Positions 8,620 through 42,338 of a DNA stretch of 64,000 nucleotides are shown piece by piece. Position numbers and translations under genes: made by a program. Each line of letters begins with the position of its first letter. The first letter of the stretch is position 1. This stretch comes from Umezawaea tangerina (lineage in GTDB: Bacteria > Actinomycetota > Actinomycetes > Mycobacteriales > Pseudonocardiaceae): contig NZ_PVTF01000005.1 of NCBI RefSeq assembly GCF_003002815.1, positions 558,001-622,000 of the forward strand, in the 5' to 3' direction. The notes under the pieces were generated by a model that did not search any database, was not told where the DNA came from, and saw nothing but the letters and a program-made list of their open reading frames with translations.

Positions 8620-8692
8620 GGGATCGGACGCCGTTCCGCAGTGGAATTGGTGCATGGAAAACAACCGGTTCCACCAGGGAAAACGTCCCGAA

Positions 8693-9076: not shown

Positions 9077-9101
9077 GTATTCCTCCGCGCTCCGCCTCAG
9101 C

Positions 9102-9216: not shown

Positions 9217-9240
9217 AAATACTTCTCGAAGGGCTTTCTC

Positions 9241-23700: not shown

Positions 23701-23844
23701 GGCGCCGTCGCCGTCCTGCGCCGACAGCAGGTCGTCGACCCGGCCGATCGCGCCGGGCACGCGCACGGCCTCCGCGATCAGGTTCGGCAGTCGCTCCGGC
23801 GGGATGGCCTCGTCCTGCGCGGCGAGGTGTCCGGGGTGTTCCAT
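20779..23844 (-). CDS. 1021-aa helical-repeat (HEAT/TPR-like) protein, partner of a STAND-like NTPase
   Basis: The ATG at 23844 shares one base with the upstream NTPase stop (TGATG); the longer frame to 24303 runs inside the NTPase gene and is spurious. The product is a solenoid of ~35-residue helical hairpins built on a theme like RARALLATTSDTGLVQELVDLA, repeated along nearly the whole length, with Asp-Pro and Leu-Pro turns. There is no enzyme motif or membrane segment. Such solenoids form the sensor half of STAND proteins; here it is a separate polypeptide made from the same transcript as the ATPase. It would plausibly bind a trigger or the NTPase itself. The role is inferred from context. 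Confidence 0.7.
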   Translation of the reverse strand: MEHPGHLAAQDEAIPPERLPNLIAEAVRVPGAIGRVDDLLSAQDGDGANHWFTARANLDWYLADLESARGVHERLADEQVAAGGPVPALVRELRYLLMAASVRSRSGVLPAGLLGALVATGAWTQSRALAHALSVADPERRAYCLIAVRETATEPDVRTAATEAVMAGYPRIDPIRRSAVVAELGRGKDPDDVVAWMLARAHEFTEPYERSAVLQALAPRHGAACVPLASAHPDPRDRLADLWFLAHHGVPGLFADAEAAASAIDDPGSWTTLADLAPTARARRRLVATALSTMDGELEGRTLAGQLREAAAQADPVQLTRILRMSTRVDDPEQRARVRAAVLRHSHGTARRVMARTAVRDAVGYGPLAALVPVLPPGELRRALPACYATREPWGRVVVFTALAERCPDRPDVLDQALVAAGTVHPDDLLPALLRIGGLPLADDQADRYRALARTLPPRARARALLATTSDTGLVQELVDLAVEEDLVDRIVPHIAGLLTADQAQRLAAATEAIGDDHSNARGVTVLARAASPDDVLRTAMAISDPRSRIDALSVLVDCLPEPHRGHALAEMLRIDAPDWRVRVLTWAFEHSKDPRHLDELAASLDTDDLPTVDVVGALVALGRHDPARLPAVLRRTARLDSWRDVHNVLFLVRDHLTEEHADLLLEIIRTRVGEEDRLAAFRTAVPHLGADLALTTARKWEPGRFRPLALMWTDLTHEPTDDIPAEALRDAEAVEDTADRVDVLVQLASRRWAGATRAALLALAHLGELPRTTATADSLLALARGVDGPDQALAALLDVVADLPPTTDRAQQLVDAAGVPAIDPDLTRRIRRAALADVRALTDERDRALCVRRLIIRQVDLPLHELVDGVTDPAIRAGLLVSLAEHSDEHRRQAVGGLLRLLDPERDPSGAARHLSAVAGLLTPDELSEALALAQRCDPDTWATVAAAVPPQRLRATAPDVLRGFRAFARNLDRKGLLALLERTLPVLHVIAGEGLAADAAPGLADVLTWWPATRPHGDS

Positions 23845-25094
23845 CAGGGTCTCCGGCGGGCACGGTCGAGGGCGCCGTCCAGCGCCGACAGGACAACGCG
23901 CTCCCGCTGCTCCTCGCGGGCGACCTCCACCTCCGGCTGTTCCAGCAGGAACTCGCGGAAGCTGCGATGGTAGAGCTGGTAGGTGCGCTTGCCGTGCTCG
24001 CGCGCCTCGTGCAGGAACTCCCGCCACTTGTCCAGCGCCGCCCACACCCGTGTGGGGGTCAGCGTTCCCGAGGTCGGCGGGTCGCACAAGTTCCCCGCGG
24101 TCACCGGGTGGTCGTGCACGACCAGGCGCACCAGCACCGGGAGCAGCACGTCCGTCCACTCCGGACTCGTCCGCCGCATCCGCGCCCAGTGCGCCCGGTA
24201 GTACCCGGCGAGCCCGGTGGGCAGGGTCGCCGGTGTCCAGTCCTGCAACCGCCCGGCGGCGATGTCCCGCACGACGTGGTGGGCGTACATGAAGTTGCCG
24301 CACGACTTCTCCACCACGGCGGTGGCCAGCTCCGCCCTGGTCGTGCGGTGCCGCGACACCGCCAGGTCGATCGCCGTCGAGTGCGCGGCGAAGTACCGGG
24401 TGACGTACTCCGCGAGGTCGGCGGCGTTGAGCGGGTCGTCGTGCGCCAGGAGGCGCTGGTGCACCCCGCTCGGCAGGGCCAGGTCGTGCCCGGTCTCGCG
24501 GGGACGGCTGGTCAGCAGCGCGAACACGCCGTCCGGCAAGCGGTCCGGCAGGTAGAGGGTGGTCGCCCGGCCTGCGGGCTGGTCGACCTCGTCGAGCGCG
24601 TCGACCACCAGCAGCACCGGTTTGTCCGCCGTCCTGGCCACGGCGTGGAACAGGTCCTCCAGGTACCCGCCGTGGTGGTCACCGGGTCCGGGTGGCGGCA
24701 GGGCGAGCCGGTGGCGCCCGATCAGCTGGGTGCCGATGTTGTCGATGAAGTGCCGTGGCGTCGAGTAGTGGGTGCCTGCCTGCACGAAGTGGCGCGGTGC
24801 GTCGTACTGGTTCGCGACCCACGCGCTCAACGACGTCTTGCCGATCCCCGGTTCGCCGCGCACGAGGAAGTAGCCGCCGCGGTGGTCGCGCAGGAAGTCC
24901 CGCAGCTCGTCCAGGAGGAACCGCCTGCCGACGAACTCCGCGACGCGGTCGGCCACGAGGTCGTCGAACGTGCGCGCCCGCGGAGGAGCCGCCCCGGCGT
25001 TCACGGTCCCGATCGAGTCGGCCTGGATGACGGCCCCGGTCACGTCCTGGGCCACGTTCACCACCCGGCGCCCCGGCGCGCCCGCTTCGTCCAC
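23844..25094 (-). CDS. STAND/NACHT-like NTPase
   Basis: The 416-aa P-loop protein has Walker A GEPGIGKTS at residues 80-88 and a NACHT-like Walker B LLVVDALDEVD at about 161-171, with a sensor-like LLTSRPRE further on and a winged-helix-like C-terminal part. The N-terminal 40 residues (VVNVAQDVTGAVIQADSIGTVN) match a short beta motif I recall at the start of many actinobacterial STAND proteins, thought to mediate assembly with effectors. The usual C-terminal repeat sensor is missing and seems to be supplied by the next gene. GTG at 25094 is used as start, without a strong ribosome-binding site. Activation by oligomerisation in a conflict or stress response is the family expectation. Confidence 0.8.
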   Translation of the reverse strand: MDEAGAPGRRVVNVAQDVTGAVIQADSIGTVNAGAAPPRARTFDDLVADRVAEFVGRRFLLDELRDFLRDHRGGYFLVRGEPGIGKTSLSAWVANQYDAPRHFVQAGTHYSTPRHFIDNIGTQLIGRHRLALPPPGPGDHHGGYLEDLFHAVARTADKPVLLVVDALDEVDQPAGRATTLYLPDRLPDGVFALLTSRPRETGHDLALPSGVHQRLLAHDDPLNAADLAEYVTRYFAAHSTAIDLAVSRHRTTRAELATAVVEKSCGNFMYAHHVVRDIAAGRLQDWTPATLPTGLAGYYRAHWARMRRTSPEWTDVLLPVLVRLVVHDHPVTAGNLCDPPTSGTLTPTRVWAALDKWREFLHEAREHGKRTYQLYHRSFREFLLEQPEVEVAREEQRERVVLSALDGALDRARRRP

Positions 25095-25178: not shown

Positions 25179-27548
25179 TCAGCGGCGCCAGAAGGACTTC
25201 TTGCGGTCGGGCTCGGTCGCGGTGAAGGCGTCGAGGACGCGGGTGGCCTCGGTCCACAGCGCGGTCACGTCGCCGCCGGTCTTGAGGTGGGCGATGAGCC
25301 TGCGCAGCGGGTCGTAGACGGGGCCGACGAGGTCGGCGAGGAGGGTGTCGAGCCTGCTGGTGAGGTCGGCCAGCAGGTCGCGGCGTTCGTGGTCGGGCAG
25401 GGAGGCGCCGGCGTGCAGGCGGCTGGCTTCGAGGGTGACGATCTCGCGCAGTTCGGCGAGGCGGTCGGGGGCGGGGGCCGAGGTGGGGGCGAAGGTCGGG
25501 GCGAAACCGCCGGGGCGTCCGCCGCCGCCGACCATGGGTGCGGCGGCGCGGGAGCGCTTGGCCGACATCCGCGGTGCCATCGGGGGCGGTGGGGCGGACG
25601 GGGCCGGGGCGGGGGCGCCCGCGGGGGCGGCCATGTCGAGGAACACGTGCTGCGAGCCGAAGGACTGCGGGGCGGCGAAGGGCAGCGCCACCGGCGGGGT
25701 CTCCCAGCCCGCGGGTGGTTCGACGGGTTGGGTGACGCGGTGGACGGTGCCGTCGGTGACGACGCGGGAGTCGACGGCGACGAACGCGGTGAAGCGGCAC
25801 AGGACGCCGAACTTCAGCGAGGTGGCGACGATGGTCGGTTCCAGGTCGGAGTTCCCGGACACGTAGGCGTCTTCGAGGTCGCGCAGTGCGGCACGGGCCC
25901 ACTGGGCGGCGAGCGCGGGTTCGTCGCGCTGCCGCACGGGGACCACGGCTTCCCAGTCGCCGCCGTCACGGGTGTGGCCGCGGACGGTGAGGGTGCCGGT
26001 GGCCGGCCCGCGGTAGCGGCCCGCGAGGACCAGCGGGACGCCGGGGTAGAGCGCGGAGGCGTGCCGAGGGGCCTGCGTGTCCGGGGTGAGGGTGATCCCG
26101 TCGGCGGTGACGGTCACGTCGGTGACGACGGGGGCGCCGATGCGGCGCTGGATGTGCTCCATGGCCTCGTCGAGGCGGTCCTCGCTCTCCACCAGCTCGC
26201 AGCGGCCCGCTCCCCTGGCGGCGAGCCTGCCGAGGAAGCCCGCGTTGACGGCGGAGTCGATGCCGACGCTGTGGATCCTGGTGCGGCCGATCAGCGGGGC
26301 GATGTCGCGCAGGATCTGGTCCTCGTTGCCGACCTGGCCGTCGGTGACCAGCACGACCACGCGGTCGCGGTCGTCGTCGGCGCCCGCGAGCAGGCTCAGG
26401 CCGTCGTGCAGCGGGGCGAGGAACTCGGTGCCACCGCGGGCTTCCACGCGGGCCAGGTGCTCGACGGCGCGGTAGCGGTGGCGGTCGGTGGCCTCGACCA
26501 GACCGGTGCCCAGGCCGGTGGGGTGCTCGACGCGGTCGTCGAAGGTGACCACGGCGAACCGGTCGTCCTTGGTGAGCGTGTCGACGATGCGGGCGGCGGC
26601 GCGGCGGGCGGCGACCATCTTCCAGCCGCCCATGCTGCCGGAGCGGTCGAGCAGCAGCACGACGTCGCGCGGGCGCACGGCGGTGACGGCCTCGGGCGGG
26701 AGGACGGTGAGCTGGTAGGTGCCCTCCTCGCCGTCGGGGACGCAGACCGCCGAGGTCCCGTGGCCGGTGTAGGCAAGGCGCAGCACGAAGTCGCGGTCGG
26801 CGCGCTCGCCGGGCAGCACGCTGAGGTGGTTGCCCTCCCCCGTCACGGTGTGCAGGCTCGACCGGACCTCGCCGAGGTCGAGACCGGCCGGGTCGATGTC
26901 GACGCCGATGGAGAGCGCGACCGGGTTGGGGAAACCGGGCAGCAGCACGGGAGGGGTGATGCGGGAGGCGTCGGGCACCCGGTCGGTGTCGGACGCGTGG
27001 CCGCTGCCGACGGACTCGCCCGGCAGCGGGGTGCCGGGAACGTAGCGGGGCGCGACGACGAGCGGGAAGCGGAACGTGGCGGCGTCGTCCTCGTAGACCA
27101 GCGGCTCGACCATGGTGAGCTCCACGGTCACGCGTTCGCCCGCGACGATGTTGCCGACCCGCATGGTGAAGACGTCGGGCCGCTCCTCCTCGGCGATGGC
27201 CGCCCGCTTGCCGGCGGCGATGGCCTCGTCGTAGTTCTGCCTGGCCTGCCCGCGTTCCTGCAGCTCCGCCTCGACGGTGCGGCCGTCGGCGGTCATGGTC
27301 ATCCCGGTCACGGCCGCGCGGTCGGGCAGCGGGAACACGTAGGTGGCCTCGAGGGCGGTGTCGTGCGGGTTGACGAACTCGGTGGTCAGGGTGACGCGGG
27401 CGACCAGCCCGGTGATGGTGGCGCGCACGTCGAGGCGGTCCAGCGGGAGGTTGCCGCGTTCGGTGCGCAACGTGCCGACGCCCGCGTCGACGGACTGCCC
27501 GACGCGGTCCAGCTCGGCCGCTCTCATCGGCGTGGTGGTGAAGGTCAT
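25179..27548 (-). CDS. VIT-VWA domain protein
   Basis: The 789-aa protein starts at ATG 27548, overlapping the MerR stop (ATGA); the frame extends upstream only inside the MerR gene. The N-terminal VIT domain (about residues 35-160) includes VFPLPDRAAVTGMTM and EAIAAGKRAAIAEEERPDVFTM. A von Willebrand A domain follows at about 285-470 with a complete MIDAS motif DRSGS, plus TDGQ, and a beta-rich middle. A Pro/Ala-rich linker leads to a C-terminal helical region. There is no signal peptide, so it is likely cytoplasmic, although eukaryotic relatives (inter-alpha-trypsin inhibitor) are secreted. VIT-VWA proteins often sit beside regulators or AAA+ ATPases, but their role in bacteria is largely unknown. 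Confidence 0.85.
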   Translation of the reverse strand: MTFTTTPMRAAELDRVGQSVDAGVGTLRTERGNLPLDRLDVRATITGLVARVTLTTEFVNPHDTALEATYVFPLPDRAAVTGMTMTADGRTVEAELQERGQARQNYDEAIAAGKRAAIAEEERPDVFTMRVGNIVAGERVTVELTMVEPLVYEDDAATFRFPLVVAPRYVPGTPLPGESVGSGHASDTDRVPDASRITPPVLLPGFPNPVALSIGVDIDPAGLDLGEVRSSLHTVTGEGNHLSVLPGERADRDFVLRLAYTGHGTSAVCVPDGEEGTYQLTVLPPEAVTAVRPRDVVLLLDRSGSMGGWKMVAARRAAARIVDTLTKDDRFAVVTFDDRVEHPTGLGTGLVEATDRHRYRAVEHLARVEARGGTEFLAPLHDGLSLLAGADDDRDRVVVLVTDGQVGNEDQILRDIAPLIGRTRIHSVGIDSAVNAGFLGRLAARGAGRCELVESEDRLDEAMEHIQRRIGAPVVTDVTVTADGITLTPDTQAPRHASALYPGVPLVLAGRYRGPATGTLTVRGHTRDGGDWEAVVPVRQRDEPALAAQWARAALRDLEDAYVSGNSDLEPTIVATSLKFGVLCRFTAFVAVDSRVVTDGTVHRVTQPVEPPAGWETPPVALPFAAPQSFGSQHVFLDMAAPAGAPAPAPSAPPPPMAPRMSAKRSRAAAPMVGGGGRPGGFAPTFAPTSAPAPDRLAELREIVTLEASRLHAGASLPDHERRDLLADLTSRLDTLLADLVGPVYDPLRRLIAHLKTGGDVTALWTEATRVLDAFTATEPDRKKSFWRR

Positions 27549-28138
27549 CGGGAGTCCCTTTCGTCGGTGAGCAGGCCGCGGGCGGTGAGCAGGTCGAGCA
27601 GCGGCTGGGCCGCGGTGGCGATGTCCCGGTAGTCGGCGGGTGTCGGCGCGCCGGGCAGCAGCAGAACCGCGCCGCCGGTGAGCGCGACGGCGCTGAGCGG
27701 GGTCGCCCTGGGCTGCGCGGCTTCGGGCTGCACGGCTGGCGGGACGGTCTTGGGCTGGGCGGCCGGTGCCTCGGCCCAGAACCGCGGCCGCGTGGGCTGC
27801 GGGGGTGGCGGCGTCGACTCCCCCAGCAGGTCCTCGGGCACGCGGGCGATGTCGGCCAGCGCGGCGTTGGTCGCTCCCGCCAGCTCGTTCTGGATCTGGC
27901 CGAGCGAGCTGCCCTCCGCCTGGCGCCGCTTGACCGCGACGATCTGGAGCAGGTGGCGGGTGTCGTACAGCGCCGTCCGCCCGCGCATCGCCGACGGGCG
28001 GTCTACCAGGCCGGTCGTCGTGTACCAGCGGACGACGCGCCGGTCGGGCACGTCGCGGACGCGCCCGTTGGGCACGCCGGGGTACTCCGCGGCCAGCGCC
28101 GCGACCACCCGTTCCACCAGCTCGTCGATCGTCCACAT
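27545..28138 (-). CDS. MerR-family regulator with Pro/Ala-rich tail
   Basis: The 197-aa product starts at ATG 28138. A MerR-type winged helix covers about residues 1-70 (WTIDELVERVVAALAAEYPG, then RVVRWYTTTGLVDRPSAMRGRTALYDTRHLLQIVAVKRRQAEG). It is atypical at the start (VPDRRVVRWY rather than a simple IGELA opening). Beyond a proline-rich linker there is a short C-terminal helical part instead of a known ligand domain. It overlaps the VIT-VWA gene and has an 8-bp dyad just upstream at the position expected for a MerR operator, so it most likely regulates its own two-gene operon. Confidence 0.85.
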   Translation of the reverse strand: MWTIDELVERVVAALAAEYPGVPNGRVRDVPDRRVVRWYTTTGLVDRPSAMRGRTALYDTRHLLQIVAVKRRQAEGSSLGQIQNELAGATNAALADIARVPEDLLGESTPPPPQPTRPRFWAEAPAAQPKTVPPAVQPEAAQPRATPLSAVALTGGAVLLLPGAPTPADYRDIATAAQPLLDLLTARGLLTDERDSR

Positions 28139-31023: not shown

Positions 31024-34000
31024 GTGCGCAGGTGGGAACTCGTGTCGGATGGCTCCGCGAAGTTCTGGGAGATCGGCCGGGACGGCACGAGCGTGACAGT
31101 GCGCTACGGGCGGCTGGGGTCGGCGGGGCAGACCAAGGTCAAGGACCTCGCGTCGGACGCGGCGGCGGTGGCGCACGTCGGCAAGCTGGTGGCGGAGAAG
31201 GAGAAGAAGGGGTACGCGGAGGTCGGCGGGCCCGCCCCTTCGACCGGCCGCGAGTCCACGGTGGACACGCCGCCTGCCACCGAAAAGCCGGCCGCCGAAC
31301 AGCCTGCCACCGAACAACCGGCCGTCCGGCAGCCTGCCGTCGACCGTCCGGACGAGACGACGTTCGTGATCCCGCCGTCGTGGCGCAACGCCGTGCGACC
31401 GGGCCGCGGACAGGGCGCGCGCCGACCGCTCAAGTCCACTCGCGGCGTCGAGAAGTACCTGAAGTCCAAGCTCGACCCGGTACCGCGGCGGTTGGGCACG
31501 GTGCTCGCCCACCCGGACTCCGAGTCGGAGCTCGTGACCGCGGCGCGCGCCTACCTCGAAGGTGACGCGACTCCGCTGGGCGCAGCGACGGTGGCGGCCG
31601 CGCTGACCGAGGAGGCCTCGCGGTTCTACGGCCGCGAGGACGTGGCCACGATCGCGGACGCGTGGGTGGTCCGGCACGGGTTCGCCTTCGCCGCCGCGGC
31701 GGCCGGGGACCTCGGCCGGATCGAGATCTCCTGGTCCGGCGCCCGCGGCCGGGAAGCGGCGAAGGTGGAGTGGCGCACCGTCGAGCGCAAGCGGTGGCCT
31801 TACGCCAACCGCCAGGTCGTCGAACGACTGCGCGGGCTGCTGATCGGGGCGGGCGAGGAGGACTACCTCGCCGCCGTCGACGCGCTGTCCTCCCGCCGGG
31901 AGACCCTGCTGACGCGGACGATCGCCGCCTACCTCGCGCCGACCCGGCACGACTGGGTCGACGAGCTGGTCGACAGCGTGATGGCCGAGCCCAGGACCGT
32001 CGAGGAGTACCGGCTGTTCCTCACCTCCCTGCGGACCGTCGAGCAGGTGGCGGCGGTGGCCGCGCGGGACGAGTACCGGTACTACGTCACCGAGAAGGAC
32101 GTCCTGCCCACGGTGGTCAACACCGTGGGAGTGGGCGTCGCGCCCGTCCTGGCGGGGCTGCTCGACGACAACCACGACAGCGACACGCGCAAGCTCGTCA
32201 TCGAGGCACTGGCGTGGATCCCGACCGACGAGGCGTTCGGGCTGCTGCTCGACCGGCTGGACGACAAGTTCGTGCGGCCCGCCGTGCTCGCCGCGATCAA
32301 GCGCTACCCCGCGCGGGCGGTGCGGGAGCTGGCGGGCGTGACGGGCTCGGAGTCGGCGAGGGTGTTGCTCGTCGGGCACGTCCAGGCCGACCCGGCGCTG
32401 GTGGCCGAGGTGCTGCCGGGGCTGGACGACGCGCGGCGCGCGGCGGTCGAGCAGGCGGCCGCCGAGGAGGGGCCGGTGCCCGACGCGCCCGCCGATGCGT
32501 TGCCGCCGCTGCTGGTCACTCCCCCGTGGACGGTCGAGCGCACGGTCGTGAAGCCGGTCGTCGTGGAAGGGCTGGACTCGCCCGTCGCGCGCGACATCCG
32601 GTGGGAGCCGGGTGAGCGGGAGGTGTGGGCGGAGGCGTTCGGCCGGTACTACTGGGCCGACGCGAAGTTCCTGGTCTGGCGGATCGCGGTCGACCGGATG
32701 TTCAAGGGCAGGATCCCGCACCACGAGCAGCCCGCGCTGGTCCTCAAGGCGCCGGAGGACCTGGTCCGGCACCGCCTCGGCGAGTGGGACCCGGAGATGT
32801 GGTCGGCGATGGACTGGGCGAAGCCGGTGGTCGCCCGGTTCGGGGTCGACGCGTACCCGGTCGCGCTCAAGATCGCGAAGTCGGACCCGTCGGGGGCCGC
32901 CGAGGTGCTGCTGCCGTTCGTCGACCGCGAGGTCGCGGTGCTGCTGGCGGACTGGCTGGCGCGGCTGAAGTCGGTGTACCCGGTCGCGGTCGCCTGGTTC
33001 CTGCGGCACCCGGAGGCCGCGGCCCGCGCGCTGCTGCCCGCCGCGCTCGGCAAGGCGGGCAAGGCGAGGCGGGACGCCGAGGCGGCGCTGCGGCTGGTCG
33101 CCGGGCGCGGGCATGCCGACGTGCTGCGCGAGGTCGCGGCCGAGCACGGCGAGCGGGTCGCGGGCGCGGTCGAGGACCTGATCGCCGCCGACCCGCTGGA
33201 CCGGCTGCCCGCGAAGATGCCGGTGGTGGGTACCTGGGCCGACCCGGTGCTGCTGCCCCGGATCCTGCTGCGCGACAGGCGGCACGCGCTGCCCGGCGCC
33301 GCCGCGGGGCACGTGCTGACGATGCTGGCGATGTCCAAGCCCGACGACGTGTACGCGGGTGTGGACGTGGTGCGGGAGCTGTGCGACCCGGCGTCGCTGG
33401 CGCGGTTCGCGTGGGCGGTGTTCGAGGCCTGGAAGGCCGACGGGACACCACCCAAGGACGGGTGGGTGCTGCCCGCGCAGGGGCTGGTCGGCGACGACGA
33501 GACCGTGCGGGCGCTGACGCCGGTGATCCGGGCGTGGCCCGGCGAGGGCGGGCACTCCAAGGCCGTGGCCGGGTTGGCCGTGCTGGCCGCGATCGGCACG
33601 GACGTGGCCCTGCTGCACCTCAACACGATCGCGCAGAAGGCCCAGTTCAGCGGGTTGAAGTCGCGGGCGCGGGAGATGATCGACGCGGTCGCGGCGAAGC
33701 TCGGGCTGACCGGGGAGCAGCTGGCCGACCGGCTGGTGCCGGACTTCGGGCTCGACGACGCGGCGAGCCTGGTCGTCGACTACGGGCCGCGCCGGTTCAC
33801 CGTCGGGTTCGACGAGCAGCTCAAGCCCTACGTGGTCGACCCCGACGGCAAGCGGCGCAAGGACCTGCCCAAGCCGGGCGCGAAGGACGACCCCGAGCTG
33901 GCGCCCGCCGAGCACAAGCGGTTCACGCTGCTGAAGAAGGACGTGCGGACGGTCGCAGCCGACCAGGTCCGCCGGTTCGAGGCGGCGATGGTGGCGCGGC

Positions 34001-34638
34001 GGCGGTGGTCGGCCGAGGAGTTCCGGACGCTGTTCGCGGGGCACCCGCTGCTGTGGCACGTCGTGCGGCGGCTGGTGTGGGTCACCGGGGACGGGACGTC
34101 GTTCCGGCCTGCCGAGGACCGGACCCTGGCCGACGCGAACGACGACGCGGTCGAGCTGGCCGAGGACGCGGTGGTGGGGATCGCTCACCCGCTGGACCTG
34201 GCAGACACCCTGGAGCGGTGGGCGGAGGTGTTCGCCGACTACGAGATCCTGCAGCCGTTCCCGCAGCTGGGCAGGCCGGTGCACGCGTTCACCGACGCCG
34301 AGCGGGCCGAACGGAGGCTGACCCGGTTCGAGGACGTGAAGGTGCCGGTGGGCAAGCTGCTGGGGCTGACCAACAAGGGCTGGCGGCGCGGGGAGCCGCA
34401 GGACGCCGGGGTGGAGTGCTGGATCACCCGGCCGGTGCCGGGCGGGTCGCTGGTGGTCAACCTCGACCCCGGCATCCCGGTCGGGGTGGTCACCCTGTTC
34501 GAGGAGCAGTGCCTGACCGCGGTGTGGCTCAACGACCGCGGCGGGGACTGGCGCCCCCGCGGGTCGCGGACCTTCGGCGAGCTCGACCCGGTCACCGCGT
34601 CCGAGGTGCTGGCCGACCTGTCCTCCCTGACGATCTGA
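31024..34638 (+). CDS. WGR-DUF4132 protein, full-length, operon leader (YehI/MolR-like)
   Basis: The 1204-aa protein starts at GTG 31024 (GGAGG upstream, same context as the short paralogue). Residues 1-65 are a WGR domain (WELVSDGSAKFWEIGRDG, then VRYGRLGSAGQTKVKDLAS). A linker repeats T-E-K/Q-P-A units (residues ~80-115). A helical HEAT-like region absent from the short paralogue runs to about residue 480. The C-terminal half is the conserved helical part and DUF4132 (DRLVPDFGLDDAASLVVDYG, then PRRFTVGFDEQLKP). Length and neighbours match what I recall of E. coli YehI (~1210 aa). It is followed 9 bases later by the MoxR-like ATPase gene. Its biochemical role is not established. Confidence 0.88.
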   Translation: MRRWELVSDGSAKFWEIGRDGTSVTVRYGRLGSAGQTKVKDLASDAAAVAHVGKLVAEKEKKGYAEVGGPAPSTGRESTVDTPPATEKPAAEQPATEQPAVRQPAVDRPDETTFVIPPSWRNAVRPGRGQGARRPLKSTRGVEKYLKSKLDPVPRRLGTVLAHPDSESELVTAARAYLEGDATPLGAATVAAALTEEASRFYGREDVATIADAWVVRHGFAFAAAAAGDLGRIEISWSGARGREAAKVEWRTVERKRWPYANRQVVERLRGLLIGAGEEDYLAAVDALSSRRETLLTRTIAAYLAPTRHDWVDELVDSVMAEPRTVEEYRLFLTSLRTVEQVAAVAARDEYRYYVTEKDVLPTVVNTVGVGVAPVLAGLLDDNHDSDTRKLVIEALAWIPTDEAFGLLLDRLDDKFVRPAVLAAIKRYPARAVRELAGVTGSESARVLLVGHVQADPALVAEVLPGLDDARRAAVEQAAAEEGPVPDAPADALPPLLVTPPWTVERTVVKPVVVEGLDSPVARDIRWEPGEREVWAEAFGRYYWADAKFLVWRIAVDRMFKGRIPHHEQPALVLKAPEDLVRHRLGEWDPEMWSAMDWAKPVVARFGVDAYPVALKIAKSDPSGAAEVLLPFVDREVAVLLADWLARLKSVYPVAVAWFLRHPEAAARALLPAALGKAGKARRDAEAALRLVAGRGHADVLREVAAEHGERVAGAVEDLIAADPLDRLPAKMPVVGTWADPVLLPRILLRDRRHALPGAAAGHVLTMLAMSKPDDVYAGVDVVRELCDPASLARFAWAVFEAWKADGTPPKDGWVLPAQGLVGDDETVRALTPVIRAWPGEGGHSKAVAGLAVLAAIGTDVALLHLNTIAQKAQFSGLKSRAREMIDAVAAKLGLTGEQLADRLVPDFGLDDAASLVVDYGPRRFTVGFDEQLKPYVVDPDGKRRKDLPKPGAKDDPELAPAEHKRFTLLKKDVRTVAADQVRRFEAAMVARRRWSAEEFRTLFAGHPLLWHVVRRLVWVTGDGTSFRPAEDRTLADANDDAVELAEDAVVGIAHPLDLADTLERWAEVFADYEILQPFPQLGRPVHAFTDAERAERRLTRFEDVKVPVGKLLGLTNKGWRRGEPQDAGVECWITRPVPGGSLVVNLDPGIPVGVVTLFEEQCLTAVWLNDRGGDWRPRGSRTFGELDPVTASEVLADLSSLTI

Positions 34639-34647
34639 GGAAGAGCC

Positions 34648-35739
34648 TTGTCCGACAACAAGAAGGTCCAGCGGCCACCGGCCGAGGTGCGGTTCGCCGA
34701 CGAGCTGGCGCGGCTGCGCGAGTCCGACACCGCGCACCGGCCGCCGGGGTGGGCGCTGAGCCTGCAGGGGGCGCGGCGGTTCATCGTCGGGGACCCGCGC
34801 GCGGGCATCACCCGCAAGTTCGTGGGCGACCCGTCGTTGATCGACCGGGCGCTGGTGACGCTCGCGACGACCCGCGGGCTGATGCTGGTCGGCGAGCCGG
34901 GGACGGCGAAGTCGCTGCTCTCGGAGCTGATCGCGGCGGCGGTGTGCGGGGAGTCGACGCTGACGATCCAGGGCGGCGCGGCCACGACCGAGGACCAGAT
35001 CAAGTACTCGTGGAACTACGCCCTGCTGGTGGCCGAGGGCCCGTCGCCCCGCTCGCTGGTGCCCGCGCCGATGCTGCGCGGCATGGCCGAGGGCAAGGTG
35101 GTCCGGTTCGAGGAGATCACCCGGTGCCCGCTGGAGGTGCAGGACTGCATGCTGTCGCTGCTGTCCGAGCGGGTGGTGGCGATCCCGGAGCTGACCGGGC
35201 CGGACGGGATGGTGTTCGCCAACGACGGGTTCACCGTCATCGCGACGGCGAACACGCGCGACCGCGGCGTGAACGAGATGAGCGCGGCGCTCAAGCGGCG
35301 GTTCAACTTCGAGACCGTGTTCCCGATCGCCGACCTGGCCACCGAGCTGGACCTGGTGGAGCAGGAGTCGCGGACGCTGCTGGAGCGCTCCGGCGTCGGC
35401 GTGCAGCCCCGCCGCGACGTGCTGGAGGTGCTGGTGACGACGTTCCGGGAGCTGCGCGACGGGGTGACGTCCTCGGGGCAGCCGATGGACCGGCTGACGA
35501 CGGTGATGAGCACGGCGGAGGCGGTGTCGGTGGCACATGCCGTCGGGCTGCGCGGGTGGTTCCTGCGCGGTGAGGCGGGCACGCCCGCGGACCTGGTGGA
35601 GTGCCTGGCGGGGACGGCGGCCAAGGACAACCCGGACGACCTGGCCCGGCTGCGGCGGTACCTGGAGCAGCAGGCGTCGCGGCGCAAGGGCGCGCAGTGG
35701 CAGGCGCTGCACCAGGCCCGCCACCTGCTGCCCGGCTGA
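34648..35739 (+). CDS. MoxR-type AAA+ ATPase (YehL-like)
   Basis: The 363-aa AAA+ protein starts at TTG 34648 with GGAAGAG upstream. Walker A is GEPGTAKS at residues 82-89. Walker B reads VVRFEEI (about 151-157), with Glu where the usual motif has Asp. The sensor region TVIATANTRDRGVNEMSAALKRRFNF is typical of MoxR/RavA-like ATPases, which remodel or load metal-binding VWA partners. Its stop shares one base with the next ATG (TGATG), and the operon also encodes a VWA protein, the expected partner. By synteny it matches E. coli yehL. Confidence 0.9.
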   Translation: MSDNKKVQRPPAEVRFADELARLRESDTAHRPPGWALSLQGARRFIVGDPRAGITRKFVGDPSLIDRALVTLATTRGLMLVGEPGTAKSLLSELIAAAVCGESTLTIQGGAATTEDQIKYSWNYALLVAEGPSPRSLVPAPMLRGMAEGKVVRFEEITRCPLEVQDCMLSLLSERVVAIPELTGPDGMVFANDGFTVIATANTRDRGVNEMSAALKRRFNFETVFPIADLATELDLVEQESRTLLERSGVGVQPRRDVLEVLVTTFRELRDGVTSSGQPMDRLTTVMSTAEAVSVAHAVGLRGWFLRGEAGTPADLVECLAGTAAKDNPDDLARLRRYLEQQASRRKGAQWQALHQARHLLPG

Positions 35740-37985
35740 TGGCGACCACGTTCGTCGGGGGCCGGCACCACAGCCCCGCGTGCGCGCGGCTGGTGGCCGA
35801 GACCATCGAGGCGCTGCGACCGGCCCACGTGCTGGTGGAGGGGCCGGTCGACATGAACGACCGGCTCGACGAGCTGCTGCTCGGGCACGAGCCGCCGATC
35901 GCGGTCTACACCTACTACCGCGACGAGGAGCGGTCGCACGCGTCGTGGACGCCGTTCTGCGACTACTCCCCCGAGTGGGTCGCGCTGGCCGCGGGCCGGG
36001 CGTGCGGGGCGCGGGTGCGGTTCATCGACCTGCCCGCGTGGCACCCGGCGTTCACCGGGCGCGGCAACAGGTACGCCGACGCCGAGGCGCGCTACACCGA
36101 GGTGACCGGCAGGCTGTGCCGGGAGTTCGCGGTCGACAACACCGACGTGCTCTGGGACCACCTGTTCGAGGTGGAGCCCGCCGACGGGCTCGCGGACCGG
36201 CTCACGGCCTACTTCGACCTGCTGCGCGGCGAGGCGACGACCGAGCACGCCGACGTGGAGCGCGAGGCCTACATGGCGTCGTGGGTCCGGGCCGCGCAGG
36301 CCGACGCGGGCGACCGGCCGGTGGTCGTGGTGACGGGCGGGTTCCACACCCCCGCGCTGCGGGTGCTGGCCGCCGGGGCCGAGCCGGGATGGCCGGAGGT
36401 GCCGCGGCCGCCGCAGGACGCGGTGGGCGCCAGCTACCTGGTGCCGTACTCGTTCCGGCGGCTGGACGCGTTCACCGGCTACCAGTCCGGGATGCCCTCG
36501 CCCGAGTACTACCAGCACCTGTGGGAGGACGGGGTGGCCGGCGCGGCGGAGGCTCTGGTCGCGTCGGTGGTGGGGCGGCTGCGCGGGCGCAGGCAACCGG
36601 TGTCGACCGCGGACCTGATCGCGGCCCGCACCCTCGCGCAGGGTCTGGCGAGGCTGCGCGGGCACGCCGACCCGTCGCGCACCGACGTGCTCGACGGGCT
36701 GGTCGGCGCGCTGGTGTCGGAGGACCTGTCGCAGCCGCCGCCGTGGACGGTGCGCGGGCCCCTGAGGCCCGGCGCCCACCCGGCGGTGGTGGAGATGGTG
36801 GCGGCGCTCAGCGGTGACCGGGTGGGCGCGCTGCACCCGGACACCCCCGCTCCCCCGCTGGTCGCCGCCGTGACGGCGGAGCTGCTCGCGCTGGGCCTGG
36901 ACGGCTCGGGTGAGGTCGACCTCGACCTCGCCGACGATCTCGGGCTGCGGCGCGGCCGGACGCTGCACCGGTTGCGGGTGCTGGGGATCGTCGGCTTCGA
37001 CCGGCTGGCCGGGCCCACCGGCGGCGGCGACCCGGTGTTCACCGAGCGGTGGCGGCTCACCCCGTCCGACCGCAGGCTGCCGGCGCTGATCGAGGCGGCC
37101 GTGCACGGCGCGACCCTGGAGGAGGCCGCGGGCGCGGCCCTGCGCGGCCGGGTCGAGGACGCGCCGGTCGACCGGCTCGCCGAGGTGCTGTTCGACGCGG
37201 CGCTGTGCGGCGTCACCGCCCTGTCCGACGACGTGGTGACCGCGTTGACGACACGGGTCGGGGCGGTGGCGGACGTGGCCGAGCTGGGGCGGGTGCTGGT
37301 GGTCGTCGTCGGGTTGTGGCGCTACGACGGGCTGTTCGGCACGGCGGGCAGCCCGGTGCTGGGCGCGGTGATCAGCGGCGCGGTGACTCGGGTGCTGTGG
37401 CTGGTCGAGGGGCTGCACGGCGGACCGGCACCGGCCGACCACCGCAGGCTGCTGGCGTTGAGCGCGACCCGCGACGCCGTGCGGCACGCCGAGTCGGTGC
37501 TGGCCACCGGGCGGGGCGAGGCGGTCGCCGTGCTCGGGCGGGTCGCCGCCGACCCGCAGGCGCCACCGGACCTGCGCGGGGCGGCGTTCGGGTTCTGCTG
37601 GTCGCTGGGCGGGGGCGCCGACGTGGTGCGGGCCGTGCGGGGCATGTCGGGGCCCAGGACGATCGGCGACTGGCTGGCCGGGCTGTTCGCCGTCGCCCGC
37701 GAGGAGGTGCTGTCCGCGGACGCGGTGATCATGCTGCTCGACGAGCTCGTGCACGCACTGTCCGAAGAGGACTTCCTCGTCGCGCTTCCCGCGCTGCGCC
37801 AGGCCTTCGCGTACTTCCCGCCCGCCGAACGGGAGACGATCGCGAAACGGGTGCTGGTCGCGCGGGGCACCGGAGGGTCCGCGCGGGAGCTGCTGCGGAT
37901 CGACGTGGACCCGGTGGTGGTCGCCGAGGGGATGGCGCTGGAGGCCAAGGTCGACGCGGTGCTCGCGCGAGAGGGGTTGGCATGA
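35739..37985 (+). CDS. DUF5682 family protein (YehM-like)
   Basis: The 748-aa product starts at ATG 35739, sharing one base with the ATPase stop. The opening TTFVGGRHHSPACARLVAETIEAL and the EGPVDMNDRL segment are the DUF5682 hallmark. The first ~270 residues resemble TraB/PrgY- or EreA/ChaN-like alpha/beta folds (VVVVTGGFHTPALRVL), possibly an enzyme with His-rich active site. The rest is helical. It always seems to travel with MoxR, VWA and SWIM genes (E. coli yehM in the same order), so it is a core component of this system, but no reaction can be assigned. Confidence 0.8.
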   Translation: MATTFVGGRHHSPACARLVAETIEALRPAHVLVEGPVDMNDRLDELLLGHEPPIAVYTYYRDEERSHASWTPFCDYSPEWVALAAGRACGARVRFIDLPAWHPAFTGRGNRYADAEARYTEVTGRLCREFAVDNTDVLWDHLFEVEPADGLADRLTAYFDLLRGEATTEHADVEREAYMASWVRAAQADAGDRPVVVVTGGFHTPALRVLAAGAEPGWPEVPRPPQDAVGASYLVPYSFRRLDAFTGYQSGMPSPEYYQHLWEDGVAGAAEALVASVVGRLRGRRQPVSTADLIAARTLAQGLARLRGHADPSRTDVLDGLVGALVSEDLSQPPPWTVRGPLRPGAHPAVVEMVAALSGDRVGALHPDTPAPPLVAAVTAELLALGLDGSGEVDLDLADDLGLRRGRTLHRLRVLGIVGFDRLAGPTGGGDPVFTERWRLTPSDRRLPALIEAAVHGATLEEAAGAALRGRVEDAPVDRLAEVLFDAALCGVTALSDDVVTALTTRVGAVADVAELGRVLVVVVGLWRYDGLFGTAGSPVLGAVISGAVTRVLWLVEGLHGGPAPADHRRLLALSATRDAVRHAESVLATGRGEAVAVLGRVAADPQAPPDLRGAAFGFCWSLGGGADVVRAVRGMSGPRTIGDWLAGLFAVAREEVLSADAVIMLLDELVHALSEEDFLVALPALRQAFAYFPPAERETIAKRVLVARGTGGSARELLRIDVDPVVVAEGMALEAKVDAVLAREGLA

Positions 37986-39112
37986 CGGGGATGGAGCGGT
38001 GGCGGCTGATCCTCGGCGAGCCCGCCGGGCCGCACTGCGGCGGAGCCGACGGCGGGGCCGAGGGCGACCCGGCGGCCATGGACGCGGCGGCCATGGACGC
38101 GGCGCTGGAATGGCTCTACGGCAGGGAGGAGGACCTCGACCCGCGCGGGGTGCGGCGCGCCGGGCAGGGCGCGTCGGTGCTCACGACGGTGACCTGGCTC
38201 GACGAGATCCACCGGCTGTTCCCCAAGGAGACGGTCGAACGGCTGGAGCGCGACGCGGTGGAGCGCTACGACATCACCGAGATCGTCACCGACCCCGAGG
38301 TCCTCTCGCGCGTCGAGCCCAACGCCTCGCTGCTGCGGGCTGTGCTGCGCACCAAGCACCTGATGAACCCGGACGTGCTGGCCATGGCGCGCAGGATCGT
38401 GGCCGCGGTGGTCGCCGAGCTGATGCGCAAGCTGGCCAAGGAGGTGCGCAACGCGCTGAGCGGCACGAGGTCGCGGCGGCCCAGCACCTTCAAGCAGGCC
38501 CGCAACTTCGACTTCCGCCGCACGATCCGGGCGAGCCTCGCGCACTACGACCCCGCCGACCGCCGGGTGCGCATCGAGAAGCCGATGTTCTCCTCGCGCA
38601 CGCGGCGGCACCTGGAGCCCCGCCAGCTGATCATGGTGGTCGACCAGTCCGGGTCCATGGCCGGCTCGGTGATCCACTCTGCGGTGACGGCCGCGTGCCT
38701 GTGGGGGCTGCCGGGGCTCAAGACGCACCTGGTCGTGTTCGACACGGCGGTGGTCGACCTGACCTCCGACGTGACCGACCCCGTCGAGCTGCTGATGAAG
38801 GTCCAGCTCGGCGGCGGCACCGACATCGCGAAGGCCGTGGACTACGCCGCGGGTCTGGTCGAGAACCCCCGGCGGACGATCGTCGCGCTGGTCACCGACT
38901 TCTACGAGGGCGGGGACCCGGTACGGCTGGTGCGCACCGTGCGCAGGCTCGTCGACCAGGGCACCACCGTGCTCGGCCTGGCCGCCCTCGACATGGACGC
39001 CAACCCCAACTACGACAAGGACCTCGCCCAGCGGCTGGCCGACGTGGGCGCGCACGTGGGCGCGATGACACCGGGCATGCTGGCCGAGTTCGTCGCGGAG
39101 AGGCTGGTCTGA
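37982..39112 (+). CDS. VWA domain protein (YehP-like)
   Basis: The 376-aa product starts at ATG 37982, overlapping the DUF5682 stop (ATGA). The N-terminal half is helical (MKHLMNPDVLAMARRIVAAV-like region and KLAKEVRNALSG). The C-terminal half is a von Willebrand A domain with full MIDAS: DQSGSM near residue 221, the conserved Thr in GGGTDIAKAV, and TDFYEGG. Such domains bind a divalent metal and mediate protein contacts. MoxR ATPases act on partners of this kind. It corresponds by order and content to E. coli yehP. Confidence 0.88.
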   Translation: MTGMERWRLILGEPAGPHCGGADGGAEGDPAAMDAAAMDAALEWLYGREEDLDPRGVRRAGQGASVLTTVTWLDEIHRLFPKETVERLERDAVERYDITEIVTDPEVLSRVEPNASLLRAVLRTKHLMNPDVLAMARRIVAAVVAELMRKLAKEVRNALSGTRSRRPSTFKQARNFDFRRTIRASLAHYDPADRRVRIEKPMFSSRTRRHLEPRQLIMVVDQSGSMAGSVIHSAVTAACLWGLPGLKTHLVVFDTAVVDLTSDVTDPVELLMKVQLGGGTDIAKAVDYAAGLVENPRRTIVALVTDFYEGGDPVRLVRTVRRLVDQGTTVLGLAALDMDANPNYDKDLAQRLADVGAHVGAMTPGMLAEFVAERLV

Positions 39113-41001
39113 TGCGGGACGACCTGCTCGCGCTGACCCCGGACGCGTTGGCGGCGCTGGCCAACCGGGGCCTGGTCAAGCGCGCGACCAAGGACCTCGA
39201 CGCCGGGGCCGGTCCCACCCTGGAGGTCGACGGCGACCTGGTGCGCGGCCGGTTCGCCGACGGGGTCGAGGTCGAGCTGCCCGCCGGGGTCCCACTCGCC
39301 GCGGCGCCCTGCTCGTGCGGCGCGCACGGCGTGTGCCGCCACCGGATCGCGGTCGTGCTCGCCTACCAGCGCCGGGACGAGTCGGCGCCCGCGTTCACCC
39401 CGTGGTCGCCCGGCACCATCGACGACACCGCGCTGGCCGCTTTGCTGGGCACCCGCGGCCTCGCCGCGGCCAAGCGGTCGCACGCCGCCGGGTACTCCGT
39501 GCGGCTGCGCAGGCCGACGGCGGCCGATCCGGCCGCGAGCGCCGAACTGCCGTCGTGCACGGTCCGGTTCCTGGTGCCCGGCGACCTCGCCTACGCGCAC
39601 TCCGACGCGACCGCCACGCGGCGCGCCGAGTTCGTGGCGCACGCGGTGTGGGCGTTCCGCGAGGCCGACGACCGGGGGCTGCTCGACGAGGTCGTGCGGT
39701 TCGACGTCGCCGGGAGCGCGGAGTCGGACCGGACCGGGCTCGCCGACGCGCTGGAGCTGGCCGACCGGGTGCTGCTCGACGGCGCCGCGCACGCCGACCC
39801 GGTGCTGGACGCCGGGCTGCGCCGGGCCGGGGCGGAGCTGGGCGGGCGCGGTCTGCACTGGCCCGCGGCGGCCGTGGGGGACCTGGTGGACCAGCTGGTG
39901 GCCTACCGGGAGCGGTCCGCGCACTACCACCCGCAGCGGGTCGCCGAGCTGGTCGCGGAGCTGCACGCGCGGCACCGGGCGACCGGGGCGCGCACGCAGG
40001 TGCTGGGCGCCGACGTGCCCGCGGAGACGCCGTTGGACCGGGTGCGGGTGACGGCGCTCGGGTGCCGGGTGAGCGGCACCGTGCAGGACCGGACCGCCGA
40101 GGTGTTCTTCGCCTGCGGGCCGACCACGCTGGTGCTGCGGCACCGGTGGCCCATCGCCGAGGGCGAGTCGCCGACGGGCCACGACCTGGCGTCGCGTCGG
40201 CTGGCGGGCACCGCGCTGGCCTCACTGGCCGCGTCGAACGTCGTGTCGGAGGCGGCGTCGCGCAACGCAGGCCGCGTGCTGCGGCTGGCGAAGGGGCGGG
40301 TGTCGAAGACGTCGATCACCCCGGTCGGCCGGTCGTGGGAGGCGTTGTCGGACGCGGTGCTCGTGCGCGACCTCGCCGCCGAGTCGGCGGTGCTGGACCG
40401 GTTGCCGCCACGGCTGGTGCGGGCACGGGTGGAGGCCGAGCTGGTGCGGGTCGTCGCGGTCGCCGAGGTCCGCTCCACGCACTACTTCCCCGGCGCGCAG
40501 CGGCTGGAGGCCGTGGTGGCCGACGAGCTGGGCGCGACGGCGACGGTGTCGGCGACCTACCGGGGTGTGTGCCCCGGCGCGCTGGACGCGCTGGCCGACG
40601 CGCTCGGGTCTGGGCCGGTGCTGGTGAGCGGGTCGTTGCGGCGGGTCGGCGGGGTGCTCGTGGTCGACCCGATCGCCGTGCTGACCGGGGCCGGGCTGGT
40701 GGTGCCCGACCTGGCGCCGCTGCCGGGCGTGGACCTGGTGCCGGGGTACGGCGATCAGGGGTCCGACCTCATCGGGTCGGCGGTGGACGCGGCGCTGGCG
40801 GCGTGCGCGGAGGCCGCGCACCGGGGGCTGCGCCACCTCACGCCCACCCTGCGAGCCAGGCTCGACGACGTGGCGGCCGACCTGCGGCGGGTCGGGCTCA
40901 CCGGCAACGCGGACGCCGTGGCGGCGTTCGGGCGGGAGGCGAGCACGCGGACGTGGGTGGACGCGCAGGTCCGGCTGCTGACGACCGCGGAGTGCCGCTG
41001 A
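39112..41001 (+). CDS. SWIM zinc-finger protein (YehQ-like)
   Basis: The 629-aa product starts at ATG 39112, sharing one base with the VWA stop. A SWIM zinc finger is visible at residues 67-77 (C67-x-C69-x5-C75-x-H77), a module that usually binds DNA or protein. The preceding residues (LLALTPDALAALANRGLVKRA) are the typical start of these bacterial SWIM proteins. The remaining ~550 residues hold alternating beta and helical segments with no known enzyme motif. It is the last gene of the operon, matching E. coli yehQ. A zinc finger and WGR domain in one operon hint at nucleic acid as the shared target. Confidence 0.85.
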   Translation: MRDDLLALTPDALAALANRGLVKRATKDLDAGAGPTLEVDGDLVRGRFADGVEVELPAGVPLAAAPCSCGAHGVCRHRIAVVLAYQRRDESAPAFTPWSPGTIDDTALAALLGTRGLAAAKRSHAAGYSVRLRRPTAADPAASAELPSCTVRFLVPGDLAYAHSDATATRRAEFVAHAVWAFREADDRGLLDEVVRFDVAGSAESDRTGLADALELADRVLLDGAAHADPVLDAGLRRAGAELGGRGLHWPAAAVGDLVDQLVAYRERSAHYHPQRVAELVAELHARHRATGARTQVLGADVPAETPLDRVRVTALGCRVSGTVQDRTAEVFFACGPTTLVLRHRWPIAEGESPTGHDLASRRLAGTALASLAASNVVSEAASRNAGRVLRLAKGRVSKTSITPVGRSWEALSDAVLVRDLAAESAVLDRLPPRLVRARVEAELVRVVAVAEVRSTHYFPGAQRLEAVVADELGATATVSATYRGVCPGALDALADALGSGPVLVSGSLRRVGGVLVVDPIAVLTGAGLVVPDLAPLPGVDLVPGYGDQGSDLIGSAVDAALAACAEAAHRGLRHLTPTLRARLDDVAADLRRVGLTGNADAVAAFGREASTRTWVDAQVRLLTTAECR

Positions 41002-41433: not shown

Positions 41434-41805
41434 ATGAGCATTGAGCTGGCGTTGAAAGAATCCATGACCATAGCCGGGGCAGTGGGCGTCGCGCTGGTCG
41501 ACTACGACAGCGGAATGTCGCTCGGCACGATGGGCGGTGGCGAGTGGCTCAACCTGGAAATCGCCGCGGCGGGCAACACCGAGGTCGTGCGCGCGAAACT
41601 CAGAGTCATGGCGTCCTTGGCGTTGAACGACAGCATCGAGGACATCCTGATCACCCTGAACCACCAGTACCACCTGATTCGCCTGCTCACCCCGGCCAAG
41701 GGCACCCCGACGCTGTTCCTCTACCTCGTCCTCGACCGGGAACGCGCCAACCTCGCTCTCGCCAGGCTCTACCTCAAGCGCATCGAAGCCAATCTGACGG
41801 TATGA
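41434..41805 (+). CDS. Roadblock/LC7 domain protein
   Basis: The 123-aa single-domain product has the Roadblock/LC7 alpha-beta fold: MSIELALKESMTIAGAVGVALVDYDSGMSLGTMGG, a central helix NTEVVRAKLRVMASLALNDSIEDILITL, and paired strands YHLIRLLTP and TLFLYLVLDRE. In actinomycetes such proteins work with small GTPases and sensor kinases in conservons, but neither is next to it here. ATG at 41434 follows GAGGAG; its stop overlaps the second Roadblock gene (ATGA), which suggests a heterodimer. Confidence 0.8.
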   Translation: MSIELALKESMTIAGAVGVALVDYDSGMSLGTMGGGEWLNLEIAAAGNTEVVRAKLRVMASLALNDSIEDILITLNHQYHLIRLLTPAKGTPTLFLYLVLDRERANLALARLYLKRIEANLTV

Positions 41806-42338
41806 GCAGCGCACACGCCCACGAGGCACGCAACCCTCCGGCGTTGCCGACGCGGAAACCGACGTCCACAAAGCCGAAATCGTTGCCACAGGGGCCCGTT
41901 GTGACTCAGCCGCCATTCGACCGGGAAGAGTTGGCGGAGACCCTCCGCGCAATTCGCCACCAGATCGACAGGGTCACCGGACTGCTGGTGGCCACCCGTG
42001 ACGGGTTGGTCCTGTCCAGTGACACCGAGGGCGTCGCCGCCGAGAGCGTCGCCGCGATGGCCGCCGCCACGATCGGGTTGGCGGCCCAGTTCACCTCCCA
42101 GGCGAACGTCGGCCAACCGCGCACCGCGGTGTTCGAGGGGGACTCCGGTTACGTCTGCGTGTTCCCGGTCGAGTCCTCGCTCCTGCTCGTCGTCTTCGGC
42201 GAGAAGGGCATCACCCACGGGCTGTTCAACATCGCGGCGCGGCAGGCGCTGTCGCTGATCCAGCACGCCGTGCTGCGCCAGCGGGTCCAGAAGGTGCGGG
42301 CCAACCGCCGCTCGTACTACGACCAGCCCGAGGGATGA
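41802..42338 (+). CDS. Roadblock/LC7 domain protein with disordered N-terminus
   Basis: The 178-aa product starts at ATG 41802 (ATGA overlap). About 45 residues of Pro/Lys/Thr-rich disordered sequence precede a Roadblock/LC7 domain at about 48-150 (IDRVTGLLVATRDGLVLSSDT, then ESVAAMAAATIGLAAQFTSQA and GDSGYVCVFPVESSLLLVVF). It most resembles the conservon-type (CvnB-like) Roadblock proteins. A basic C-terminal helix ends the chain. It probably pairs with the upstream product. Confidence 0.82.
   Translation: MSSAHAHEARNPPALPTRKPTSTKPKSLPQGPVVTQPPFDREELAETLRAIRHQIDRVTGLLVATRDGLVLSSDTEGVAAESVAAMAAATIGLAAQFTSQANVGQPRTAVFEGDSGYVCVFPVESSLLLVVFGEKGITHGLFNIAARQALSLIQHAVLRQRVQKVRANRRSYYDQPEG

Follow-up and report, generated by a model that had tools for sequence, protein, structure and literature searches.

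YehL of Escherichia coli gives its name to a whole subfamily of MoxR AAA+ ATPases, and the operon that encodes it is found in nearly every E. coli. In strain K-12 the genes form the cluster yehF-yehH-yehI-yehK-yehL-yehM-yehP-yehQ, and among the open-access PMC papers listed by our searches none assigned it a function. A stress gene network study reportedly names yehH and yehQ. BglJ-RcsB is described as activating the molR promoter (PMC5025477, in part); yehM is listed among genes mutated under copper (PMC12409786, in part) and yehQ was cloned and deleted in butanol work (PMC6442406, in part), two leads that are too thin to build on. Here we describe a five-gene operon of Umezawaea tangerina, at positions 31024-41001 of a 64,000-nucleotide stretch of contig NZ_PVTF01000005.1 (the whole stretch is called the window below), whose five families follow one another in the same order as in K-12. 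The operon adds another example to a cluster that is known but has gone unexplained, and we offer a new reading of its enzyme. Its genes are:

31024-34638, + strand: WGR-DUF4132 gene, 1204 amino acids (aa), GTG start with GGAGGAG upstream
34648-35739, + strand: YehL-type MoxR AAA+ ATPase gene, 363 aa, TTG start, Walker A GEPGTAKS, Walker B with E-E
35739-37985, + strand: DUF5682 (YehM) gene, 748 aa, ATG start
37982-39112, + strand: VWA_CoxE (YehP) gene, 376 aa, ATG start, metal-ion-dependent adhesion site (MIDAS) DQSGSM
39112-41001, + strand: SWIM-type gene (YehQ relative), 629 aa, ATG start, motif CSCGAHGVCRH

We propose, with a confidence that falls a little short of an even chance, that the products of the operon make up a hydrolase machine that is driven by ATP and directed by an adaptor, its parts being the MoxR-VWA pair, DUF5682, DUF4132 and the SWIM protein. 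The MoxR (YehL) and VWA (YehP) proteins would act as a chaperone pair controlling the DUF5682 protein (YehM), which would contact the VWA protein. The WGR-DUF4132 solenoid and the SWIM zinc protein would recognise a target or signal and, on engagement, MoxR would use ATP either to hand the target over to the hydrolase or to unlock that enzyme. The machine would most likely serve in a conditional response, either to stress or for quality control.

Gene order, co-occurrence and locus types

An earlier note on this DNA, made from the letters alone, had described five tightly packed genes within 10 kilobases (kb), and the open reading frames (ORFs) verified this: a gap of 9 bases is followed by overlaps of 1, 4 and 1, and there are no internal stops. 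Alternative in-frame start codons lie at 30940, 30967 and 30988, so the start of the WGR-DUF4132 gene is uncertain. The domain calls of that note also held. Pfam detected WGR (9.9e-15) and DUF4132 (2e-61) in the first protein, AAA_5 (6.3e-34) in the MoxR protein, DUF5682 (4.6e-113) in the third and VWA_CoxE (4.5e-55) in the fourth. The SWIM protein scored under the Pfam PF04434 cut-off (14.2 versus 19.6 bits, E 0.032), whereas YehQ scored above it (31.5 bits); the call stands on the motif CSCGAHGVCRH, which agrees with CxCxnCxH despite the sub-threshold score, and on kinship with YehQ. A second finger of YehQ (CDC...CEH) was not seen in the window SWIM protein on inspection by eye. Between 30500 and 41500 no sigma-70-like promoter was found, which says little for an actinomycete, and terminator-like matches numbered three against 1.3 expected, all of them on the minus strand.

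Identities between the window and K-12 proteins were 64% for MoxR/YehL, 57% for VWA/YehP, 38% for DUF5682/YehM, 35% for DUF4132/YehI (over ~600 C-terminal residues) and 28% for SWIM/YehQ (E 1.4e-46). The earlier note had given the E. coli order as yehI, yehL, yehM, yehP and yehQ; orthologues of these five do stand in that order, but its list omitted yehF, yehH and yehK. The K-12 cluster differs from the window operon in carrying WGR on the separate YehF and none on YehI, whereas in the window WGR is fused to DUF4132; in addition, yehH is broken and yehK is extra.

Gene order was compared across 80 loci, the best 80 of 540 confirmed DUF5682 relatives from a genome-collection scan with a DUF5682 alignment, a set that leans to close kin; families were assigned by custom hidden Markov models (HMMs). 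The loci came from Actinomycetota, Pseudomonadota, Acidobacteriota, Myxococcota, Planctomycetota and one cyanobacterial assembly. All five families stood in order in 62 of the 80 loci (61/74 with contig-end-cut loci set aside), a count that takes in loci L093-L104, with their short DUF4132 and weak SWIM matches, wherever adjacency held. The 62 complete loci covered five of the six phyla, as assigned from record titles and tree labels, and the two Planctomycetota loci were without SWIM or more. MoxR and DUF5682 were adjacent in 78 loci and VWA and DUF5682 in 71; SWIM came directly after VWA in 69, and DUF4132 lay upstream in 67. Among the 13 uncut exceptions, three (L078, L080, L089) have DUF4132 between DUF5682 and VWA, so that DUF4132 moves as a module. 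One further locus, L092, holds DUF5682 without the other families. Walker A and E-E were retained in 77/77 near-full-length MoxR matches, the usual form of Walker B being D-E, and the SWIM motif was kept in 74/74 SWIM matches. A chance gene cluster was rejected because the order recurs across phyla. Taken with the yeh order of E. coli, this synteny across five phyla upholds the earlier note's view of a conserved multi-gene machine.

Co-occurrence was scored in samples of 246 Actinomycetota and 249 Pseudomonadota genomes, which were not chosen by either family and which include the window's genome and G265 (centre of the second sample), known to hold both. In the Actinomycetota DUF5682 was present in 19 genomes and DUF4132 in 13 (12 over the cut-off), and both were present in 10 versus 1.0 expected (Fisher p = 1.3e-10, a value that is inflated by relatedness, as are the p-values that follow). 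Counted by genus, both occurred in 4/171 versus 0.45 expected (p = 3e-4). The Pseudomonadota gave 11 genomes with DUF5682, 10 with DUF4132 and 8 with both versus 0.44 expected (p = 2e-11). The two families lay on one contig and no more than 10 kb apart in 9/10 Actinomycetota (not G190) and 7/8 Pseudomonadota (not G438). DUF5682 occurred without DUF4132 in nine Actinomycetota and three Pseudomonadota, and DUF4132 without DUF5682 in three and two, respectively. On the matter of co-occurrence, too, the earlier note was borne out: in both phyla DUF4132 and DUF5682 are found together much more often than chance would allow.

Three loci with DUF5682 are present in the window's genome: the window operon (type I), L010 (type II) and L009 (type III). 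L009 reads DUF5691-MoxR-DUF5682-VWA, with a SWIM gene 1.3 kb further upstream. L010 encodes a short DUF4132 protein, a 1615-aa protein without a Pfam match, MoxR, and DUF5682 and VWA together as a single ORF. We count the differing partners at L009 and L010 in favour of the proposed machine. DUF5682::VWA was one ORF in 8/8 type-II actinobacterial loci examined (L008, L010 and L220-L225), a figure that denotes recurrence across genera and not a frequency, because L220-L225 were picked for open frames of at least 1243 aa (G069, with an open frame of 917, lay outside the fusion set). The fusion of two genes is a standard argument that their products work in contact.

In a MoxR tree of 46 rows, the window protein and YehL fell in supported clades of 24 rows (100/98) and 25 rows (100/97). 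The type-III rows formed a 100/100 group, and type I, with the window and YehL, formed the 100/97 group of 25 rows; L008 and L010 joined Gammaproteobacteria and Planctomycetota rows with weak support (82/50). The tree tool warned of long branches meeting where type-III rows join L014. By its sequence, the window protein is thus assigned to the YehL subfamily of MoxR ATPases, with a VWA partner gene in its operon. A lone recent import was rejected, as the window MoxR is nested among 12 Actinomycetota rows (support 100/100). Locus L014 itself (G003, 5527-12260) is a distant VWA-MoxR operon with a 934-aa DUF5682-like protein; the genome search (101 bits) and the custom HMM (93 bits) both recognised it, whereas the Pfam scan, contrary to both, found no DUF5682.

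The N-terminal domain of DUF5682

The point missed in the first reading is the hydrolase-like domain of DUF5682. The AlphaFold2 model of this protein (mean predicted local distance difference test score, pLDDT, 90.9; predicted template-modelling score, pTM, 0.87) had an alpha/beta N-domain at about residues 1-260, followed by helical repeats. A profile of the N-domain, built from 53 sequences, was compared with other profiles by hhalign. The global match to ChaN had E 4.5e-5 over 177 columns and that to TraB E 6e-4 over 208 columns; TraB and ChaN matched each other at 6.2e-4. Against 14 control segments taken from MoxR, VWA, SWIM, DUF4132 and the DUF5682 C-half, the N-domain reached 0.12 at best, and ChaN reached 0.26 (global) at best against the same controls. 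Reversed profiles gave 0.063 (local) and 0.11 (global) at best, and all 13 column-shuffled profiles gave E 0.31 or worse. The local match sits on the final R-x-x-x-M...G-x-x-H block.

Five residues of the domain (H10, E34, E79, E176, H203) were invariant in 63/63 sequences, including YehM. A pattern search found the H10-E34 spacing to be 24 in 51/53; the His-Glu pair of TraB was spaced by 26 or 24 in 18 of the 20 rows (of 30) fitted by pattern. The corresponding literature gives a His85-Glu113 pair for Bcr135 and a 2His/2Glu set for TIKI enzymes (PMC6254334, in part). The profile match and the conserved residues together lead us to place the DUF5682 N-domain in the TIKI/TraB/ChaN superfamily, an assignment made at the superfamily level, and hydrolase activity is predicted. 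A TraB search in 21 relatives found none, and the term DUF5682 was not found in the open-access PMC papers searched. In a strain of the same genus, the DUF5682 gene (L011, G001, 9332-11857) is longer by ~90 codons, inserted in frame behind residue 218.

Variation of DUF4132

The AlphaFold2 model of the DUF4132 protein (residues 111-1204, mean pLDDT 89.5) showed a long helical solenoid and then a conserved mixed C-terminal region. Mean identity to the window among the other 43 aligned sequences was 0.26-0.39 at residues 111-610 and 0.56-0.64 at residues 811-1110. A Foldseek search with this model returned mostly HEAT-like matches among the 50 rows shown, the best being a PP2A scaffold (E 3.7e-4, template-modelling score <0.3); full-model searches of both DUF5682 and DUF4132 were dominated by helical repeats and are of little use. 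Copies of DUF4132 of at least 200 aa numbered none in 9 of the 80 loci, one in 44, two in 16 and three in 11, and were in tandem in 27. WGR was detected on 31/81 long DUF4132 ORFs (custom HMM, E 0.01) and in 27/80 loci at E 1e-5.

Among the five proteins, conservation within five sets of close relatives was lowest for DUF4132 and highest for MoxR, with SWIM, DUF5682 and VWA between them. DUF4132/MoxR identities were 75/96% in Lentzea, 60/88% in Streptomyces, 48/84% in Actinomadura and kin, 40/91% in Glycomyces and 78/97% in the window's own genus, a comparison based on the DUF4132 gene beside MoxR, a gene of uncertain orthology. The gap between DUF4132 and SWIM was small in Streptomyces (59.8 versus 61.6%).

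A further comparison comes from E. coli. The yehL-yehQ stretch had a match in 5301/5426 complete genomes, at 80% length or more in 5162 and with a median of one place; 5320 places were chromosomal and 2 were on plasmids. The yehF-yehI stretch had a match in 5370 genomes, in up to three places, but reached 80% length in only 4057, partly because the K-12 array that served as query is decayed. Four E. coli strains were viewed: two had three full-length DUF4132 genes, and two had decayed DUF4132 together with a decayed core gene. With the core near-universal and the DUF4132 array variable, a stable core is here paired with a changing set of proposed adaptors.

In the window's genome DUF4132 was located at eight places, of which two belong to DUF5682 loci. 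One of the six others lies in the window, 10 kb upstream of the operon, and is a possible orphan adaptor:

18168-20639, + strand: second WGR-DUF4132 gene, 823 aa, Pfam DUF4132 1.2e-54 and WGR 1.7e-17

Neighbours were scanned at four of the other five orphan genes and were mutually unrelated. At one orphan WGR-DUF4132 gene of the same genome (L106, 7691-15420), a HerA/FtsK-like ATPase gene lies nearby on the same strand.

Other neighbours of the operon in the window were also noted. Downstream (41434-42338, + strand) are two small genes, the second encoding a roadblock/LC7 protein. Upstream, on the minus strand, a gene for a protein with VIT and VWA domains stands beside a MerR-like regulator (25179-28138), and a NACHT/AAA_16 gene (23844-25094) is immediately followed by a 1021-aa gene without a Pfam match, the two (20779-25094) forming a possible two-gene nucleoside triphosphatase system.

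Alternative explanations and known systems

Several observations weigh against the hydrolase machine. Foldseek with the whole 748-aa DUF5682 model gave no match at E 0.001, the rows being mostly helical repeats, and a PDB profile search gave no superfamily member, its five matches being four designed pentatricopeptide repeats and one synthetase. The absolute hhalign probabilities were low (12-41%). The TraB profile was noisy, reaching 0.018 (global) and 0.015 (local) against unrelated control segments; the TraB match is therefore modest, and ChaN carries the case. When the first GxxH...E block was compared alone with TraB, the local value of 0.02 was at noise level. The erythromycin-esterase profile did not match the N-domain (0.86 global, 0.15 local), and it was unclear also against TraB (0.11 global) and ChaN (0.87 global). 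The catalytic set is not present in every member of the TIKI superfamily (PMC6254334, in part). As for the partners, DUF5682 and VWA are separate genes in the gammaproteobacterial relatives, D-x-S-G-S is absent from 6/73 VWA matches in the 80 loci, 9/80 loci are without a DUF4132 match of 200 aa (some of them cut), and fast evolution of DUF4132 does not prove an adaptor role. A bolder version, in which MoxR-VWA restrains and then activates DUF5682 as a protease of TIKI type or some other hydrolase, and an expandable DUF4132 set including the genomic orphans aims it, strikes us as possible but doubtful. On this version the operon would represent one more class of hydrolase under AAA+ control, common among bacteria and so far overlooked in the near-core genome of E. 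coli.

The same genes might instead encode a maturation chaperone, in which MoxR-VWA, like RavA-ViaA, would remodel a specific enzyme complex or load a cofactor, the ChaN-like domain would bind metal or haem rather than hydrolyse a substrate, and DUF4132 and SWIM would act as scaffolds. ChaN is the best DUF5682 profile match and its Pfam family is named for haem binding, the VWA protein belongs to VWA_CoxE, and the locus was formerly named molR, for molybdate. The general view of MoxR proteins is that they bring specific complexes to maturity or activate them (PMC3893208, in part). Yet no client enzyme gene common to the loci was seen, no survey having been aimed at one, and the neighbours at four of the six orphan DUF4132 genes have nothing in common, a molybdopterin oxidoreductase two genes away from the orphan in L108 notwithstanding. 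A fast-evolving tandem adaptor is also unexpected for a fixed client, and we regard this explanation as unlikely. A complex acting on damaged DNA or RNA, with WGR and SWIM binding the damaged nucleic acid and the machine clearing proteins from it, would draw on the fact that SWIM is a nucleic-acid- or protein-binding domain. WGR is described as a DNA-binding domain of MolR-like factors (PMC7824862, in part). The presence of WGR on so few of the long DUF4132 matches (31/81) and its absence from E. coli YehI make such a complex very improbable in our view; by the same token, the nucleic-acid target that the earlier note had considered likely finds weak support.

That note had also raised a role in conflict. 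As an anti-mobile-element system, DUF4132/WGR would sense foreign nucleic acid or protein and MoxR-VWA would release the DUF5682 hydrolase, and several features of the data could be read in this way. The ATPase-VWA logic is common with MoxR-vWA ternary conflict systems, some of which include peptidase domains (PMC7159879, in part). DUF5682 is patchily spread (19/246 Actinomycetota, 11/249 Pseudomonadota), DUF4132 is fast-evolving and duplicated, decayed alleles occur in E. coli, and on the Iodobacter mobilizable plasmid pl1 (L199) the whole operon sits beside type I restriction genes. Patchiness alone was rejected as proof of defence, however, as the core is near-universal in E. coli, and in nearly all E. 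coli it occupies one chromosomal place. No PADLOC model fits the five proteins, the best being WGR_XIII (E 9.9e-4, 56/973 profile positions). PADLOC models with a hit numbered 34 for the 146 flank proteins versus 7 for the 106 control proteins, but of the 25 flank models displayed 18 were PD-T4-6 variants with one protein each, and the most-hit defence model was found in 2/146 flank versus 7/106 control proteins. We concluded that the flanks hold no clear excess of defence models by this test, which is coarse because its report is at family level, with 25/34 families shown and no per-protein total; it covered loci of at least 62% guanine plus cytosine and proteins up to 900 aa, leaving aside ten near-duplicate loci and four L105 proteins of the 150 chosen. 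A viral scan gave 94 pattern matches, none confirmed as a relative. The phage collection yielded a single partial match to DUF5682 (43% of the query, E 2e-22) at 11778-12755 of MT835988, a 14-kb unannotated record labelled 'Bacteriophage sp.', and the plasmid collection had a DUF5682 match in 30/72,556 records, several of them chromosome-sized. Given the lack of a PADLOC fit or clear flank excess, the viral scan without a confirmed relative and the near-universal core, the suggestion of a conflict role was not sustained, and we consider it quite unlikely.

If the hydrolase machine is the correct reading, some MoxR-VWA pairs would drive a TIKI-like hydrolase, and DUF4132, so far no more than a name, would be its exchangeable aiming part. 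New in this analysis are the TIKI-like domain of DUF5682, the DUF5682-VWA fusion, the ranking of DUF4132 and MoxR rates, and the contrast between core and array in E. coli. Because the catalytic prediction names its residues, it makes a long-standing puzzle directly testable in K-12.

Among known systems, RavA-ViaA resembles the window operon in having a MoxR ATPase and a VWA partner in one operon, and it is purely by analogy with this pair that the ATPase may remodel the VWA protein, as the earlier note proposed. We know of no hydrolase-like or DUF4132 partner of RavA-ViaA. Its ATPase belongs to a MoxR subfamily other than the window's YehL type (PMC3893208, in part). The MoxR-vWA ternary conflict systems likewise have a MoxR and vWA core with a variable third component, but that component is VMAP, iSTAND, FtsH or a beta-propeller (Kaur et al. 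2020, PMC7159879, in part). None of these four was found in a Pfam scan of the five window proteins at E 0.1, and bpMoxR stayed below its Pfam cut-off in them (21.2 versus 27 bits); conversely, SWIM, WGR, DUF5682, DUF4132 and TIKI were not found in the available portion of the main text of PMC7159879. With the TIKI/TraB/ChaN superfamily, DUF5682 shares a domain-long profile match (to ChaN and TraB), the conserved His and Glu of the first two strands (H10, E34), and a final Gly-x-x-His. It differs from that superfamily in that its domain is joined to a long helical-repeat half and is encoded in an AAA+ operon.

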